Assembly (NCBI GenBank): GCA_938082375.1
Contig: CALKCJ010000048.1
Location: 1-64,000 of the forward strand
Length of the DNA stretch: 64,000 nucleotides
Direction: 5' to 3'
Source: an uncultured Thermomicrobiaceae bacterium
Lineage (GTDB): Bacteria; Chloroflexota; Chloroflexia; Thermomicrobiales; Thermomicrobiaceae
Shown here piece by piece: positions 23,074 to 61,493 of the stretch. Both the position numbers and the translations under genes were made by a program. Every line of letters starts with the position of its first letter. Positions within the stretch are counted from its first letter, which is position 1. The notes beneath the pieces are model-generated. The model was given only the letters and a program-made list of their open reading frames with translations, had not been told where the DNA came from and ran no database searches.

Positions 23074-25143
23074 CTAGCCGTGCGAAGCCGGCGGCGCATT
23101 CTGGCCGGGCGGAGAGAGATCGAGGCTCCGCTGGCTGAGCCACTCCTGGATGACGACTGTCTGGATCACCACCGGACGGCCGAGAAGTTCCGAAAGCGCC
23201 GCCTCGACCGCTGGCCGTAGCCGCCCCTCCAGCCGCCGGCAGGCAGCCTGGCTCGGCGCGCCGAGGATGAGGTCGCCGTCCTCTGACAGACCCAGCAGCA
23301 TGGCCGGCCGGATCCAGCTCTCAAAGCTCGCTGGCGGAAGCCGCGCCTGCAGCAGTTCTTGCGCCATGGCCCAGAGCTGGTAGTTGGTCAGCCCATCGGG
23401 CAAGCGAATCGCTGGCACGGCTGGAGCACCAGAGGGGGCTGTCGGCGATGGCGTCGGATTCGGCTGGAGAGCGGTCGCCTCCCCCGATGAAGGAGTAACC
23501 ACCTGGATCGGGATGCCGAGGACGGCAGTCAGCGCGGCAGCTAGTCGCCGGGCAACCTCCGGCGGGAGCGCGACCAAGGCCTCGTCGCTTCCCCGCGAGG
23601 GCGGGCCGATCGCATGGTGTGCCTCGGAGAGGAGGCGGCTCACCGGGCGAGGCCGCGTCTCTCCAGCATCGAGCCGGCCACGACGCTGCGATCCGCCAGG
23701 CGGCACTGTCGCCCGATCAGGTGCTGGAACCCGGGACAGCGCGCCTCTCCTGCTCAGCGCTCTCGCGTTCGGCGGCGAGCCCGGCCGAACCGAATCATCC
23801 CCCAGCTCGGGGGAGTTCCTGCTCGCTCTGGAAGCGCCTGGATTCCCCTCGACGACCCAGCGAGCCAAGATCTCGCGGATCCGCTTCGGTGCGACGAAGC
23901 TCGATCCGCTGCTAACTGCCTCGCGGATGGCTGCCACCAGCCACTGCGAAGGCTCAGCGTCTTGCAGCCGAGCCGCCTCGCTGAACTCCGATTCGAGTTC
24001 GCCCAGGAGCTGGCGCTCGAGCGGAGTCGCTGGTCGGCCGTTGGCGGCCTGGTAACAGGCGACCACTTCGGGCGAAGGCTCGGGCAGTGGGCTGGACGCG
24101 AGCTCAGGCGGAGGTATCGGCGAGATAACCGGCGCGGCAGCCAGCGGCGCAGGTGCATCAGCATCGTCCTCAGGATCGATGGGCTTTGTTGTCGTCGTAG
24201 TATCCCGCTGTTGGTCATACGTCCGGTTGGAGTGTGCAACGCTGCTCCTCCTCTCGTCGTTGCCCGCGCCAACAGTGCTTGGCTCGGAAGCGATCGAACC
24301 ACTGCTGCTCTCGCCAACACCGGACGGTGGACCGTTGTTACTCGGTGCAACATCGAGCTGCAACCCAGGGTTGCTCTCGTCAACAGAGGTCGAAGTACGC
24401 TCGGCGTGGCCTACCTGGGGGTGACTCGGCGTCACGAGGTCGGGTGACTGGAGCTGGCGGCGACGGGCGTGGCCAGCGCGGGTGCGGGCAGAGGCCCGTG
24501 CCTCCTCCTCGGCGACGCGCTGCGCGAGCTGCTGCCAGGTGGCGTGCTGGCGGACGACCGGCAGGATCTGGTGCCACACGTTGTCGCGGTCAATCGGGGC
24601 GAAGCGGTCGGAGAAGATATGACGGATGTAACGGTAGACTGCCTGGTCGCGAGCGGCGAGCTCCACGACGCGGAGGACAGCCTCGGGCGTGAGGGAGAAA
24701 CCCTCGGGCCGATCCTTCACTCGGTAGAAGTTATGAGGCACTCTCCAGCGGTGGCCAGCCTCGTCAACGCGGGTGACCATTTCCTTGCGGATCTCGATCA
24801 GGTCGAGGGCGATCAGGATCTTGTTGATGGTGATCAGCTCGAGGCGCTCCTCTCCGTAGAAAGCGGCTTCGGCTTGCTGGCTAGGGAAGGCGTAGCCCTG
24901 GTAGGGGGAGTCCTGACGGCGGTCAGTCCAGACGGTGTAAGAGTTGAGGAGCCCCACACCTTTGAGGCCGATCAAGGGCGCGAACTGAGTGACGAGGGTG
25001 TTCCAGTGCCAGAACCAGCCGCGGCGGCGAACGTCGTCTCCCGACCGCTCCGCGGGTGGCTCTCCCGCCCGCGAGTGGCCCGCGCTGGCGCGGGGCGGCT
25101 CGGCCGCCGGCTCGCCGGTCGATCGGCGCTCCGCTCTCCTCAT
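23074..25143 (-). CDS. Replication-initiator-like protein with C-terminal DnaA domain I
   Basis: A 689-residue protein in three parts. The first ~210 residues are a globular region rich in aromatic residues (RRRGWFWHWNTLVTQFAPLI, NILIALDLIEIRKEM), with winged-helix character like plasmid Rep or DnaD-type proteins. A ~350-residue Ser/Thr/Pro/Ala-rich low-complexity linker follows. The C-terminal ~85 residues match DnaA domain I: LWAMAQELLQARLPPASFES, WIRPAMLLGL, then a LILGAPSQAA strand and LSELLGRPVVIQTVVI. In DnaA that domain binds helicase loaders and DnaB. Start ATG 25143 follows GAGG; longer starts up to 25236 are possible. An imperfect palindrome covers the upstream region. It likely initiates or regulates replication of some replicon; family-level proof is lacking. 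Confidence 0.6.
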   Translation of the reverse strand: MRRAERRSTGEPAAEPPRASAGHSRAGEPPAERSGDDVRRRGWFWHWNTLVTQFAPLIGLKGVGLLNSYTVWTDRRQDSPYQGYAFPSQQAEAAFYGEERLELITINKILIALDLIEIRKEMVTRVDEAGHRWRVPHNFYRVKDRPEGFSLTPEAVLRVVELAARDQAVYRYIRHIFSDRFAPIDRDNVWHQILPVVRQHATWQQLAQRVAEEEARASARTRAGHARRRQLQSPDLVTPSHPQVGHAERTSTSVDESNPGLQLDVAPSNNGPPSGVGESSSGSIASEPSTVGAGNDERRSSVAHSNRTYDQQRDTTTTTKPIDPEDDADAPAPLAAAPVISPIPPPELASSPLPEPSPEVVACYQAANGRPATPLERQLLGELESEFSEAARLQDAEPSQWLVAAIREAVSSGSSFVAPKRIREILARWVVEGNPGASRASRNSPELGDDSVRPGSPPNARALSRRGALSRVPAPDRATVPPGGSQRRGRLDAGETRPRPVSRLLSEAHHAIGPPSRGSDEALVALPPEVARRLAAALTAVLGIPIQVVTPSSGEATALQPNPTPSPTAPSGAPAVPAIRLPDGLTNYQLWAMAQELLQARLPPASFESWIRPAMLLGLSEDGDLILGAPSQAACRRLEGRLRPAVEAALSELLGRPVVIQTVVIQEWLSQRSLDLSPPGQNAPPASHG

Positions 25144-25222
25144 GCTCGTCACCTCGCCACGGCACGATCGGCCATCGCCTGGCTCCCGGCCACAGTCTAC
25201 CATGTTTCCACGCGAGTACTCA

Positions 25223-25236
25223 ATGACTTTGGTCAT
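25223..25236. promoter_or_regulatory. Inverted repeat upstream of the DnaA-domain gene
   Basis: ATGAC, TTTG, GTCAT is a perfect 5-4-5 inverted repeat, extended outward by ACTC and GAGT with one unpaired base. It lies 80 bases upstream of the chosen start and next to a plausible minus-strand promoter (TTGAGT, 17 bases, GTAGAC). It may be an autoregulatory operator or an iteron-like site. Confidence 0.45.
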
Positions 25237-25724
25237 GAGTTTGATTCCAGTAAAACGTGCTGAATAGGATCATATGCGTGGTTCAACTCCAGAACGGCGA
25301 GGGGAACCGATTCGTCTGGGGTCGGGCGTGCTCGCCCATGAGCGGTTGCTCGCTGCCCACACTTCGGCGTGGCGGCCCGTGAGTCGCGGCGGTGTTTGGG
25401 CCCGCTGAGCCTGATGGACTGGCCGCTCCGGTCGTGACCTGGCGAGCGGCAGCCCTGGTTCTGGCGGTTGCTCGCCGGTGGGGAGGGTCAGGTGTGCCGA
25501 GTCGAGAGCAGCTCCCGGTCGCCGGGCGAGGCCAAAGCCGCCCAGGCGCGTGCTCCGGGCCAACGGCTATCGCAGTTCGCGTGCCGAATTAGGCTTGTTG
25601 ATTCGCGTGACTTGAATCGTTGACTACTGCTTGGCAATACTTGCCAGCGTTGAATCTGCGTGGCATACTGGAGACAAGGTACGTCACGTGCACAACAGCC
25701 TGCGTGAACAAACGGAGGCGCGCG
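25237..25724. other. Divergent intergenic region, possible origin or control region
   Basis: No gene is supported in these 488 bases between the two divergent genes. The left end (25237-25275) and the right end (25570-25700) are AT-richer than the window average, and short motifs recur (ATTCGCGTGAC at 25601, GCAGTTCGCGTGC at 25572). The placement next to a DnaA-domain protein makes it a candidate replication or partition region, but no DnaA boxes or iterons are obvious by eye. Confidence 0.35.
25632..25646. promoter_or_regulatory. Perfect 6-3-6 inverted repeat upstream of the winged-helix gene
   Basis: TGGCAA, TAC, TTGCCA, about 80 bases before the start of the 25725 gene. It could be an operator for that protein itself, since it looks like a DNA-binding regulator. 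Confidence 0.5.
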
Positions 25725-26456
25725 ATGGAGATTTTGCTCCCGTATCGTAGCGATCCCCGGCTGCTCTTCCAGGTGATTGAGTACGCCAAGGGAAAGGGGA
25801 TCGAACGCACGGCGCTGGAGGCACGTCTCGGTGGCGGTGAGCCTCTGCGGGAGACTCTGAACGCCCTCGAGCAGCTCGGTCTGATTGACCGGGAGGACGG
25901 GGCGGAGATTCGCCTTACCGAAGACGGCCGGAGGCTGGCCTACGCGACCGGCGACGACGAGCGGCGGGCAGAGCTCGCCCGCGCCATCGTTCGCTACCCA
26001 CCTTATGGGGTCGTCCTGGAGCGAGCACTGGCCGAAGGGCTCAGCGTGGTGGACGCGCCCTGGGTGGAGCGGGTCTGGCAGGTCGACATGCGGCTGGGCC
26101 AGCCGCGCAACCGGGTGGAAGAGGCCCGAACCTTCTTCTTCCGGCTGGCCGACGAGGCCGGGCTGGGAGTTTTCCGTCGCGGAGTTCGAGGTCAGGCGTC
26201 GCGACTCGTCCTGGCCCCCGATCTGTCGTCCCGTCTCCAGGCACTCCGGGCTGAAGCCAGCGCTCAGCCGGACGAACGACCAGCAACGAAGCTTGCGCCG
26301 ACGTTAGCAGTGCCTTCTCCGCCCCAGCGCTGGCCTGTCCCCGCTGAGGCCGGCGTCTCGCTCACGGTGACAGTCGACATGAGCCTCTGGGAACTGGAGA
26401 AGATCGAGGCCTTCCTCCGGCTGATCGGTCTGGTGCCGGCGGAACGCCGCGCCTGA
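25725..26456 (+). CDS. Winged-helix protein of unknown role
   Basis: A 243-residue soluble protein. The N-terminal ~65 residues read as a winged helix (ALEARLGGGEPLRETLNALE, then QLGLIDREDGAEIRLTEDGR), close to the DUF5343-like or archaeal-style regulators. Residues 70-175 are helical; the middle is Pro-rich; the end (VSLTVTVDMSLWELEKIEAF) forms a beta-helix unit like the tail of some wHTH/ATP-independent regulators. Start ATG 25725 follows GGAGG. Divergent from the DnaA-domain gene, so it may regulate it or take part in the same replication function. Confidence 0.65.
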   Translation: MEILLPYRSDPRLLFQVIEYAKGKGIERTALEARLGGGEPLRETLNALEQLGLIDREDGAEIRLTEDGRRLAYATGDDERRAELARAIVRYPPYGVVLERALAEGLSVVDAPWVERVWQVDMRLGQPRNRVEEARTFFFRLADEAGLGVFRRGVRGQASRLVLAPDLSSRLQALRAEASAQPDERPATKLAPTLAVPSPPQRWPVPAEAGVSLTVTVDMSLWELEKIEAFLRLIGLVPAERRA

Positions 26457-26606
26457 TCCAGCGGCCGATCGCGGGCGGTGTGGTCTATCCGAGATGGGCC
26501 GCTTTCGGGGCCGGTGCGTCGCTGCCGGCCTGCGCTATCCTTCGCAGCGACGGCGACGGTAGCGCGCTATGGTCGCTTGCGGTCGCGTGAGAGGAGGCGG
26601 GAACCG

Positions 26607-27590
26607 GTGGGCGAAGAGCACGGGAGGAACCTGGTACGGCGGCTGGCCGTGACGAATGCGGTCGGTATGTTTCTCGTGGTCATGCTGGGGGCGACGGTGA
26701 CGACGACCGGCTCCGGGGAGGGCTGCGGGCGTTCCTGGCCGCTCTGTCATGGCCGGTTCATCCCGGAGCTGACGCTGCCGACCGTGATCGAGTACAGCCA
26801 TCGCCTGATCACCGGCGTCGAGGGGGTGCTGATGGCCGGCCTCGCGGTCGGCCTCCTCCGCTACTGGCGCTCGCGGCGTGAGATCCAGATACTCCTGCCG
26901 CTCATGGTGCTGACCCTCGTCGTGCAGTCCGGCCTCGGTGCCTGGGCCGTCCTGGCGCCGCAGTCACCGCTGGTGATGGCGCTGCACTTCGGCATCTCCC
27001 TCACTGCCTTCGCCAGTGTGCTGCTGATGGCAGCCGTGCTCCGCGAGGAGGGTGGCAGCGAGCGGTACCGGTCATTGCCGCTGCCGCCTGGCTTTGCGGC
27101 GCTCGCATGGTGTTCGGTCGGCTTTACCTATCTGGTCGTCTACCTCGGGGCCTATGTTCGCCATACCAATGCCAGCCTGGCCTGCCTCGATTGGCCGCTG
27201 TGCCAGGGCCAGCTCGTCCCCGGGTTCTCTGGGCCGGTCGGGGCCGTCTTCCTGCACCGCCTCGCAGCACTTGCCGGCACGCTGCTGCTGGCGGCTCTGG
27301 CGCTCTACGCGGCTCGCTGGCGTGGGCAGCGGCCAGACCTCTGCTGGGGCAGCCTGGTCGCGCTCGGGCTGGGACTGGCGCAGTCGGCCAGCGGCGCCGT
27401 GCTCGTGCTGAGTCGGCTTGACCTGCTTGTGTCTCTCGCGCACTCGGGCATCGTGGCCCTGCTCTTCGGCACTCTCTGCTACCTCGCCCTCCACACGCTG
27501 CCCCTGCCGGTCTCACTGCCGGCCGCGTCAGAGCAGGCCGAGCGCGAGGTGACCGTGCCGGTGGTGGCCATCAGCGGGTCAGAGCGCTAG
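26607..27590 (+). CDS. ctaA: Heme A synthase
   Basis: A 327-residue, eight-helix membrane protein of the CtaA/COX15 family that oxidises the methyl of heme O to the formyl of heme A for aa3-type oxidases. Both paired-cysteine loops are present (GCGRSWPLC and ACLDWPLC), as are the four heme-ligand histidines (YSHRLITG, LHFGISL, FLHRLAAL, LAHSGIVAL). Start GTG 26607 after GAGGAGG; upstream codons in the same frame are not conserved-looking. The gene stands alone here, without ctaB or oxidase subunits beside it. Confidence 0.92.
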   Translation: MGEEHGRNLVRRLAVTNAVGMFLVVMLGATVTTTGSGEGCGRSWPLCHGRFIPELTLPTVIEYSHRLITGVEGVLMAGLAVGLLRYWRSRREIQILLPLMVLTLVVQSGLGAWAVLAPQSPLVMALHFGISLTAFASVLLMAAVLREEGGSERYRSLPLPPGFAALAWCSVGFTYLVVYLGAYVRHTNASLACLDWPLCQGQLVPGFSGPVGAVFLHRLAALAGTLLLAALALYAARWRGQRPDLCWGSLVALGLGLAQSASGAVLVLSRLDLLVSLAHSGIVALLFGTLCYLALHTLPLPVSLPAASEQAEREVTVPVVAISGSER

Positions 27591-27709
27591 CGGGTCTGGT
27601 GCCATCCCCGCTGCCGCAGCGCTCGCCGCTTGGTAGACTCGCAGCGACGTGAGCGAGCAAGAGGTGTGCACGGGCACCGCCGGGTTCTTGCCGCGGTGGA
27701 AGGTGCGAG

Positions 27710-28657
27710 GTGAGTTCGGATCGATTGCCGAACATCGTCATTCGCGCTTATGGCCAGTACTACGACGTTCTGACGCCCGCGGGCGTGCTCCGCTGTGTTG
27801 TGCGGGGCAGCCTGAAGCGGGCGCGGCGCAAGACCGACATCGTCGCGGTCGGCGATCGGGTCGAGGTGCGCCAGGTGGCTCCCGGAGAAGGCGTCATCGA
27901 GGCGGTAGCGCCGCGGACGCGGGCGCTTGCGCGACGTGCCCGCGGCACGGAGGACACCGAGCAGGTCATCGTCGCTAACCCGGATCAGCTCGTGGCGGTG
28001 TTCGCGGTCACCCAGCCAGAGCCGAGCCTGCCGATGCTCGACCGCTTCCTCGTGATCGCCGGGGCGCAGGAGATCCCGGCCATTGTCTGCGTCAACAAGA
28101 TCGACCTCGATGCCGACGGCAGCAAACGCCGTCTCTTCGACCCGTACCGGAGGGCTGGGTACCCTGTCGTGGAAACGAGCGCACTCACCAGTGCTGGACT
28201 GGAGGAGCTGTGGTCGTGTCTTGCCGGCAAGCTCTCGGCGCTCGCCGGCCCGTCCGGGGTAGGCAAGTCCAGCCTGGTGAAGGCCTTCCGGCCGGATCTG
28301 GACATCCGGATCGGCGAGCTCAGCGAGGCCACCGGGCGTGGTCGTCATACGACGACGGTGACCTCGTTGATCCAGCTCGACGAGCAGACCTTCATCGCCG
28401 ATACTCCTGGCATCGGCACGCTCGGCCTCTGGGGCGTCGAGGCCGACGAACTGGATCGCTGCTTCCCCGAGTTCCGTCCCTATCTCGGCGCATGCTACTA
28501 TGCCAACTGCCGGCACCTGGCGGAGCCCGGCTGCGCTGTGCGGGCGGCCGTCGAGGCGGGCGAGGTCGACACTGGCCGCTACGCAAGCTACCGGACACTC
28601 TTCGAGCAACTCCTCGAGGAAGAGCGTGCCGAAGGGTGGCGTCGCTTGCGCCGGTGA
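27710..28657 (+). CDS. rsgA: Ribosome small subunit-dependent GTPase RsgA
   Basis: A 315-residue circularly permuted GTPase that helps mature the 30S subunit. An N-terminal OB fold (YYDVLTPAGVLRCVVRG) is followed by G4 (VCVNKIDLD), G1 (GPSGVGKSSLVKA), switch elements (GRGRHTTTV) and G3 (DTPGI), and a C-terminal zinc knuckle (C-x4-C-x-H-x6-C: CYYANCRHLAEPGC). All match the family and order. Start GTG 27710 is used. The next gene follows at 24 bases. Confidence 0.93.
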   Translation: MSSDRLPNIVIRAYGQYYDVLTPAGVLRCVVRGSLKRARRKTDIVAVGDRVEVRQVAPGEGVIEAVAPRTRALARRARGTEDTEQVIVANPDQLVAVFAVTQPEPSLPMLDRFLVIAGAQEIPAIVCVNKIDLDADGSKRRLFDPYRRAGYPVVETSALTSAGLEELWSCLAGKLSALAGPSGVGKSSLVKAFRPDLDIRIGELSEATGRGRHTTTVTSLIQLDEQTFIADTPGIGTLGLWGVEADELDRCFPEFRPYLGACYYANCRHLAEPGCAVRAAVEAGEVDTGRYASYRTLFEQLLEEERAEGWRRLRR

Positions 28658-28681
28658 GAGCGGGACAAGAGGAGGACAGGG

Positions 28682-29161
28682 ATGGCTCAGGGGATCGAGG
28701 TGCTGCGCGACGGTCTCCGGCAGACGCTGCGCGAGCAGCACCAGGTGATGCGCGAGTTAATCCAGGGTGTGGACACCGAGGCACTGAACTGGTCGCCCGG
28801 GCCGGAGATGAACTCGCTTGCCGTGCTATACGCACACCTGCTCGATGCCGAGCGCTTCCTGCTAGCGGTGGCGCTCGGCGAGACGATCCAGCGCGACCGG
28901 GCAGCCGCCTTCCGCTATCAGGCCCCGGACACCGCGATGCTGCTCCAGTTGATCGACTCGGTGGAGGCCGAGTCGCTGGCCCGGGTCGATCGCCTGACTG
29001 AGGAGGATTTGGCGACGGTGCGCACGCCCGCCGGCGACCGGCTGAACCGGCGGTTCCCAGGCATTTGGTGGGTGCTGCACGCGATCGAGCACAACCGGGA
29101 GCACATCGGCCAGGCGATGCTCACGCGCCAGCTCTACGAGCAGCGCAGCGCTCGCGTCTGA
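28682..29161 (+). CDS. DinB-family protein
   Basis: A 159-residue four-helix-bundle protein of the DinB/YfiT group, many of which are thiol-dependent metalloenzymes. Three histidines positioned for metal binding are visible: YAHLLDAE, VLHAIEHNREHIGQ. The ATG follows AGGACAGGG. Close to rsgA but unlikely to share function. Confidence 0.82.
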   Translation: MAQGIEVLRDGLRQTLREQHQVMRELIQGVDTEALNWSPGPEMNSLAVLYAHLLDAERFLLAVALGETIQRDRAAAFRYQAPDTAMLLQLIDSVEAESLARVDRLTEEDLATVRTPAGDRLNRRFPGIWWVLHAIEHNREHIGQAMLTRQLYEQRSARV

Positions 29162-59629: not shown

Positions 59630-59650
59630 ATTCGCAGGGGGACGATCTCG

Positions 59651-60433
59651 ATGACGCCGGCTGTCGCCTTCTTCAACCAGAAGGGTGGGACTGCCAAGAC
59701 CACGAGCACCCTCAACGTCGGGGCCGCCATGGCTGAGCAGGGGCTCCGGGTTCTGGCCTTCGATCTCGATCCCCAGGCCAGCCTGACGATGGCGCTCGGC
59801 ATCGATGTCCAATCGCTCCCGCTCTCCGTCTACGACCTGCTGGTCGACGAGACGGTAGCGCTGGCCGAGGTGGCGCAAGCCACGCGCATCCCCGGGTTCG
59901 ACGTCGTGCCGAGCCATCCGGATCTGGCGGCCGCCGAGCTGGAGCTACTGAGCGAGCTCGAGCGCGAGCGCAAGCTGAGTCTCAAGCTCCAGGCCGCCCA
60001 GCCGCTCCCGTACGACGTGGTTCTGATCGACAGCCCACCGGCCCTGAACATCCTGAGCATCAACATCCTGGTGGCTGCCAACACGCTGGTAATCCCGATC
60101 GAGCCGCACCCCCTCTCGCTGATGGTGCTGCGCCGGCTCTTCGAGACCGTCAACCGAGTACGCCGGCTTAACCCGCGGCTCGAGGTGCTGGGTTTCCTGC
60201 CCACCAAGGTCCACCACTCCTCGCGCCTGGCGGCCGACATGCTGGCGACGCTGCGCGAGCAGTTCCCCGAGTTGCCGCTTCTACCCTTGATCCCGCTCTC
60301 GGTCAAGGGCGCTGAGTCGGTCGCTGAGCATAGCTCGATCCTTCAGTACCAGCCGCGGTCGCCGCTGGCCGCGGCCTACCGGCAGGCGGCGGCCGAGATC
60401 GCTCGACGCGTAGGGAGTCCCAGCCATGTCTGA
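59651..60433 (+). CDS. parA: Chromosome/plasmid partition ATPase ParA
   Basis: A 260-residue Walker-type partition ATPase. The deviant Walker A loop is [15 protein letters not shown], the second lysine-type motif is [10 protein letters not shown], and the Walker B strand is [10 protein letters not shown]. It forms the moving ATPase that segregates replicons. The start is ATG 59651 behind GGGGGA. It overlaps parB by eight bases, the standard parAB layout, and so marks a replicon partition locus. Confidence 0.93.
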
Positions 60434-61493
60434 AGCTCGCCCGCTCCAGGAGCCGGTGCCGTCGCTGCGGAACCTCCCCGGTGACCAACCAGCCCCAGGC
60501 AGCCAGCCGCCGCGCCGACGTCGCCGCTTCACGGTGGACGCGCTCTTCGCCGATACCTCGCCGCGGGCGGTCGGCACACGCGAGCTGGCGACGGCCAGGG
60601 AGATCCGGCTGGATCGGATCGAGCCCGACCCTGACCAGCCGCGACGCTCCTACGACCAAGAGCGGCTGGAGGAGCTGGCAGCCTCGATCCGCCTCGAGGG
60701 TGTCTTGCAGCCGATCGCCGTGCGCTACGACCCCGAGCGTGACCGCTACGTGATCATCCACGGCGAGCGTCGCTGGCGGGCGGCCCAGCTCGCCAGGTTG
60801 GAGAGCATCCCGGCGATCGTCCGCGAGGTGGGCGAGGAGCAGCGGCTGATCCAGCAGCTTATGGAGAACATCCTGCGCGAGGACCTGAATGCGCTCGATC
60901 GGGCCGCCGCACTGCGCCGGCTGAAGCGGCAGATGGGCGATGCTCCCTGGGAGCAGGTGGCCGAGGCGGTGGGGATCAAGCGCAGTCGGCTCTTCCAGCT
61001 CCTGAGCACCGAGAAGCTGCCGGAGCCGGTGCAGGCCGAGATCCGGGCCGGCCGGCTCTCGGAGAAGCAGAGCCGGCCGCTGCATGGTCTGCCAGAGTGG
61101 GCACAGGCGGCGCTGGCCGAGCTGATCGTCGAGGAGGGGCTGGAGCAGCGGGAGATCGAGCGGCTGGCTCGGGCGCTGCGCGCGAATCCCGAGCTAGCGC
61201 AGCAAGACGTGGAGTCGCTGCGCGAGCAGCTCCGCCGCATGCGGAGTACACTCGTCGCCGCCCAGGTTCGCCGTGGCCGCCAGGCTGAGCCGGCTGTCCG
61301 GCCTAGCACGCCGCAGCCGGCAAGCGCCGACGGCCCGGCGATGGCCGTGCTGGAGCAAGTGAGGGAACTCGGGGAGACGTTGATCCGGCTCGACGCCGCC
61401 CGCCTGGCCGGAGACGAGCGCGCCCAGCTCGCCACCGAGTTACGCGGCTTGGCCCAGCAGATCCGTCGTACGCTGCGCGCGCTGGGGGACTGA
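60426..61493 (+). CDS. parB: Partition protein ParB
   Basis: A 355-residue CTP-dependent clamp protein. The N-terminal CTP-binding region has GERRWRAAQ and MENILREDLNALDRA, followed by the helix-turn-helix (AEAVGIKRSRLFQLLSTEKL). The C-terminal dimerisation part is helical and Arg-rich. It loads at parS sites; a canonical parS (TGTTTCACGTGAAACA) is not found in the window by eye. Overlap with parA ensures co-expression. Confidence 0.92.
   Translation: MSEARPLQEPVPSLRNLPGDQPAPGSQPPRRRRRFTVDALFADTSPRAVGTRELATAREIRLDRIEPDPDQPRRSYDQERLEELAASIRLEGVLQPIAVRYDPERDRYVIIHGERRWRAAQLARLESIPAIVREVGEEQRLIQQLMENILREDLNALDRAAALRRLKRQMGDAPWEQVAEAVGIKRSRLFQLLSTEKLPEPVQAEIRAGRLSEKQSRPLHGLPEWAQAALAELIVEEGLEQREIERLARALRANPELAQQDVESLREQLRRMRSTLVAAQVRRGRQAEPAVRPSTPQPASADGPAMAVLEQVRELGETLIRLDAARLAGDERAQLATELRGLAQQIRRTLRALGD

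Follow-up and report, generated by a model that had tools for sequence, protein, structure and literature searches.

A probable replication initiator dedicated to the secondary chromosome of Thermomicrobiales, with a proposed origin inside its own gene

The window, by which we mean the whole stretch of DNA that was analysed, comprises 64 kb of the 71-kb contig C48 in a genome of 3.36 Mb. A gene on its reverse strand, here called rep, encodes a predicted winged helix, a linker whose coding DNA carries a repeat array, a DnaD-like domain and a DnaA domain I. The features of the locus, with positions in the window, are as follows.

23077–25236, minus strand: rep ORF, at most 720 codons; start codon uncertain, conserved from near 25044
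24445–25044, minus strand: predicted winged-helix domain of rep, its most conserved part
24211–24384, minus strand: iteron array in the linker coding sequence, proposed origin core
24363–24384, minus strand: iteron R1, GTTGACGAGAGCAACCCTGGGT
24330–24351, minus strand: iteron R2, GTTGCACCGAGTAACAACGGTC
24297–24318, minus strand: iteron R3, GTTGGCGAGAGCAGCAGTGGTT
24252–24273, minus strand: iteron R4, GTTGGCGCGGGCAACGACGAGA
24211–24240, minus strand: iteron R5 with a conserved tail, ACGTATnACCAA, then a run of ACN repeats at 24187–24201
23836–24075, minus strand: DnaD C-terminal-like five-helix domain, motif RIREILARW
23137–23397, minus strand: DnaA domain I of rep
25237–25725, no strand: divergent intergenic region with probable promoters, the origin proposed in the initial annotation; no iterons
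25726–26456, plus strand: hypothetical protein, divergent from rep, with a sub-threshold AAA_assoc_C match
26478–29161, plus strand: ctaA-rsgA-dinB block, syntenic beside rep in T. roseum and Sphaerobacter
59645–61493, plus strand: parA-parB, encoding the genome's second ParB (at 60.6 kb), ∼34 kb from rep

An alternative ATG of rep at 25143 is the start that was given in the initial annotation, which described a winged-helix protein with a globular, aromatic-rich N-terminus, and a winged helix is indeed predicted there by structure modelling. Among the sequences aligned, this domain is 67–96% identical to that of the window. When its model was compared with solved N-terminal domains of Rep proteins, Z scores were 8.1 for 4pql, 7.9 for 4pt7 and 7.3 for 5kbj, and other winged helices scored equally or higher; eukaryotic TFIIE outscores plasmid RepA as a match, so that the fold is generic, and a Foldseek search with the winged helix alone gave no significant match. 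The low-complexity linker noted earlier corresponds to parts of the model that are low-confidence or disordered (pLDDT <50 at residues 200–318 and 402–492 of the 656-aa conserved part). Between these lies the DnaD-like domain (residues 325–399), which is confidently modelled, stands directly ahead of DnaA domain I in domain order, and matches, from end to end, the fold of the C-terminal domain of DnaD (2i5u, Z 9.1; 2zc2, Z 8.8). Sequence matches to DnaD at this position are weak (TIGR01446, E 0.06–0.07; PF07261, in one orthologue; DnaD chain 8ojj, E 0.43) and fall below curated cut-offs.

The DnaA_N pattern that had been read in the C-terminal ∼85 residues was confirmed by the HMM comparison suggested with it, because the C-terminus matches Pfam DnaA_N at 31.8 bits (cut-off 24.6), and at 35.9 bits in another search. 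Moreover, a profile search of solved structures also matched it to DnaA domain I, and the model superposes on DnaA domain I of 4tps_B with Z 13.5 and an rmsd of 1.5 over 82 residues. A second, degenerate copy precedes the last one in many orthologues, including that of Sphaerobacter (local HMM). The match to the DnaA model TIGR00362 covers only the first 74 of 437 positions, and the AAA+ domain III and DNA-binding domain IV of DnaA are absent from rep. Thus winged helix, linker and DnaA domain I stand as first described, whereas the DnaD-like domain and the repeats inside the gene had been overlooked. A phage origin of rep was rejected: tblastn gave no phage match, and a PHROGs search returned stray matches to single members only.

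Within the linker DNA are five dyads of the form GTTG-N7-CAAC-N3-GGTT, spaced by 33, 33, 45 and 33 bp, and the array is conserved as DNA across Thermomicrobiales. The motif was set by eye on rep genes, so that the number of matches within the gene does not by itself count as independent evidence; that role falls to the codon tests and a replicon-wide scan. Synonymous-codon shuffles within each gene never reached the observed array score in 27 of the 31 orthologues, and 1–10 of 500 shuffles did so in the remaining four. The valine codon of the iterons is GTT in 91 of 92 cases, compared with 127 of 946 elsewhere in the gene (Fisher 2e-68, a p-value that overstates independence because the counts pool related species). 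Bases are kept at several iteron columns despite a change of amino acid, for example in GTT/GGT/ACT/TCT, and synonymous third bases are fixed, with GTT in 22/22, 21/21 and 21/21 species in three columns and GGT in 21/21. The shuffles, valine codons and kept bases together support selection on the array at the level of DNA. The repeats keep the reading frame and their peptides are alike, as would be expected if they were kept for the peptide motif V-x-x-S/T-N-x-G and not as DNA sites, but this explanation is hardly credible because the synonymous third bases are fixed and are kept when the amino acid changes, and because codon shuffles rarely or never reproduce the repeats. In rep, selection for the protein and selection for the iteron DNA overlap in one sequence. 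A scan of the complete T. roseum megaplasmid (918 kb) placed clusters of three iteron sites in rep only; in Sphaerobacter C2, also complete (1.25 Mb), it gave the cluster in rep and one apparent chance cluster at 1,142,450. The array is essentially unique on these two replicons.

The initial annotation had proposed the AT-richer gap at 25237–25724 as the origin. This region is in fact AT-richer, mildly so (0.59–0.68 GC in 250-bp windows), and holds one 12-nt repeat pair. A search of the gap for iterons gave a single iteron-like match with 3 mismatches, which is at chance level, and the conserved five-copy array lies in the coding sequence instead. The gap was consequently rejected as the site of the origin's binding array, and an origin within rep is more likely, although the gap may still carry a promoter or an unwinding element. 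The core of the earlier proposal, a replication initiator, stands, and its placement of the origin in the gap is not supported. Upstream of rep in T. roseum and Sphaerobacter there are no repeat arrays resembling the iterons, and footprinting of the upstream DNA in three same-genus species gave short matches only. A scan for DnaA boxes near rep found none; the control around the chromosomal dnaA likewise showed no cluster, which makes the scan uninformative.

Full-length dnaA is a single-copy gene on another contig of the window's own genome, and the contig with dnaA differs from the contig with rep in every genome that has both. In Sphaerobacter (G004), rep is on C2 (1,252,731 bp), the second replicon, and the other contig has 2,741,033 bp. 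In PLSDB the T. roseum megaplasmid is the sole record that matches rep; this megaplasmid has a sequencing depth equal to that of the chromosome and one rRNA operon (PMC2615216). Thus Sphaerobacter chromosome 2 and the T. roseum megaplasmid are large, stable secondary replicons that lack dnaA and carry rep, and the initial placing of rep on a non-primary replicon is supported by both of them; the contig of the window is likewise without dnaA.

Exactly two ParB proteins were found in 10 of the 11 genomes searched, and one was detected in G018. The second ParB shares a contig with rep in 7 of 12 genomes or records (G000, which is the window's own genome, G003, G004, G005, G008, G011 and the T. 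roseum megaplasmid) and is on a different contig in the other assemblies. The place of the divergent gene at 25726–26456 is taken by a hypothetical gene in T. roseum, and its orthologue adjoins rep in Sphaerobacter; the protein is possibly a regulator. In the window genome, as in T. roseum and Sphaerobacter, the gene for the ribosome maturation GTPase RsgA (window 27710–28657) is carried by the secondary replicon.

An origin-like signal was found at rep itself: on Sphaerobacter C2, taken as circular, the cumulative GC-skew minimum is at 757.0 kb (local minimum 756,817) and so lies inside rep (755,820–757,850). The first iteron, at 756,609, is ∼0.2 kb from this minimum, and the skew maximum is at 382 kb. 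In G005 the local skew changes sign at rep on a 5-kb scale, on a contig with little overall skew. The skew minimum is 3 kb from rep on the same-genus contig G003:C63, and a local minimum is ∼5 kb from rep on the contig of the window. The sign change is at least 100 kb from rep in G011 and G008, the skew does not match rep in G022 and G001, and on the T. roseum megaplasmid the minimum at 885 kb and rep at 134 kb are ∼167 kb apart. A step from weak to strong skew coincides with rep in G014 and in three Thermomicrobium-type replicons. On T. roseum NC_011961 a weak-skew segment of ∼180 kb runs from 870 kb to 135 kb and ends at rep, and similar weak-skew segments adjoin rep in two further Thermomicrobium-type replicons.

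The T. roseum minimum at 885 kb, together with the fact that base 1 of this megaplasmid was placed by GC skew (PMC2615216), would suit a secondary replicon that initiates elsewhere, for example at the T. roseum skew flip near base 1, with rep as a former plasmid rep or a regulator. We regard this as very unlikely, because protein and iterons are conserved order-wide under purifying selection, the Sphaerobacter minimum is inside rep, and the T. roseum weak-skew segment ends at rep. With the origin in rep, it is plausible, though unproven, that an old inversion accounts for the T. roseum mismatch: synteny with Sphaerobacter is retained on the upstream side (rep, hypothetical gene, ctaA, rsgA, dinB), which is the pattern that an inversion of the other arm with one breakpoint at the origin would leave. 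The published base 1 of the T. roseum megaplasmid may not be the origin, and the prediction from rep makes the origin of this megaplasmid testable.

A rep orthologue is present in most genomes of Thermomicrobiales and in nearly all near-complete ones; G023 and G029 showed dnaA only and no rep. Distances between winged helices track those between DnaA proteins across 25 genomes (Mantel r 0.86, compared with a best of 0.44 in 2000 permutations), and this co-inheritance points to vertical inheritance of rep from the ancestor of the order onwards. Across 400 genomes of the phylum, nearly every match beyond the order was to DnaA itself, and only G240, G141, G234 and G212 yielded recognisable relatives with the N-terminal or the DnaD-like parts. 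These distant relatives keep the C-terminal module and have other repeats in the same linker; in shuffle tests the repeats stand out in L224 and L225, are borderline in L227 (1 of 60 shuffles) and are not significant in L230, yet TGACAA/TTGTCA-like dyads are visible in the last. L227 and L230 (G212:C50 and G234:C451) have the same DnaD-like and DnaA-I C-terminus and TGACAA/TTGTCA-like dyads in the linker. Their N-terminus is a different helix-turn-helix, HTH_36 in G234, which we read as a modular domain swap and which resembles the chimeric pPR9 initiator (PMC5703833).

We propose that rep is very probably the dedicated replication initiator of the Thermomicrobiales secondary chromosome (a chromid or megaplasmid), with the origin inside its gene. 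In the proposed mechanism, the winged helix would bind the five dyad iterons in rep's own linker-coding DNA, which would make gene and origin one portable unit. The iteron-bound and probably oligomeric protein would then bend or open the DNA, and the DnaD-like domain and DnaA domain I would recruit the host DnaD, the DnaC/DnaI-like loader and the DnaB helicase, in the way that DnaA domain I works at oriC. That rep binds and unwinds DNA, recruits the helicase and acts without full-length DnaA is in each case inferred. The window's own genome has a cluster of dnaB, dnaD and a DnaC/DnaI-like loader (L238:117-2467, on G000:C10), in which dnaB and the loader were named by sequence patterns and not by HMM; the cluster amounts to a helicase-loading set of Firmicutes type within a genome of Chloroflexota. 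The DnaD-like and DnaA-I domains are primosomal parts and would also fit a protein with a general role in the primosome or in restart, or an accessory DnaA helper of DnaD-like type, tied to no one origin. Such a role is highly improbable, however, in a genome where a genuine DnaD is already encoded next to dnaB, and for a protein whose gene carries an essentially replicon-unique iteron array and is borne by a secondary replicon, where in Sphaerobacter it coincides with the skew minimum.

As a dedicated initiator, rep predicts both the initiator and the origin sequence of a second chromosome in Chloroflexota that is ancient and has been inherited vertically, and for which closed reference genomes are at hand, and it unites in one chain two partners of Firmicutes helicase loading, DnaA domain I and a DnaD-like domain. 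Initiation of second chromosomes is known mainly from proteobacterial iteron and repABC chromids (PMC6090056). The separate parts and the layout with an intragenic origin are already known from plasmids; we did not find the combination with DnaA-I, or an order-wide role as second-chromosome initiator in Chloroflexota, in the open-access literature, and an earlier description is possible. On balance we lean towards a separate class ancestral to the order, which would join winged helix, DnaD-like domain and DnaA-I, hold its origin in the gene, replace DnaA and feed into DnaD/DnaB.

Among known systems, DnaA has domain I in common with rep, but rep lacks the AAA+ domain III and the box-binding domain IV and has domain I at the opposite end. 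DnaA domain I of B. subtilis is a helicase-recruiting hub that binds DnaD (PMC10201431). DnaD and DnaB of the Bacillus primosome share with rep the winged helix and the fold of the DnaD-type C-terminal domain, whereas rep combines these in a single chain with DnaA-I, with which DnaD partners, and has iterons of its own, and the DnaD of the genome is separate. The protein BCY19596 of a Leptolinea sp. HRD-7 plasmid (AP024711), also from Chloroflexota, likewise couples DnaA-I with a helix-turn-helix-like module, but its DnaA-I is N-terminal, it has 295 aa, and no DnaD-like domain was seen. It is encoded at L240:3536-4423 (AP024711.1), annotated as hypothetical, and is likely a plasmid initiator. 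The chromid initiators RctB and RepC (repABC) are, like rep, dedicated to a secondary chromosome, and repC has its origin inside the gene (PMC6090056), as is proposed for rep; rep differs in occurring in another phylum and in having parAB ∼34 kb away and not in an operon, and no Pfam relation to RctB or RepC was found. The search of plasmid Rep families advised in the initial annotation gave no match to RepC or RepA_N; for RepA_N (PF06970), the Pfam scans covered the rep protein and 22 orthologues. The RepA_N initiator of staphylococcal pSK41 has a winged helix that binds four boxes located within its own gene, a linker encoded by the origin DNA, and a DnaD-like C-terminal domain that binds primase (PMC5703833). 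RepA_N initiators of this kind share with rep central in-gene boxes (here predicted), an origin-encoded linker and a DnaD-like domain, and they have at the N-terminus a winged helix, which in rep is predicted and of generic fold; rep adds one or two copies of DnaA-I, has a different iteron and is carried by megabase replicons in Chloroflexota. Because the sequence test for RepA_N failed, we file rep as working like RepA_N and not as a member, and its simplest reading, by analogy, is a RepA_N-like initiator that would bring a DnaD-like domain and a DnaD-recruiting DnaA domain I to its own iterons.
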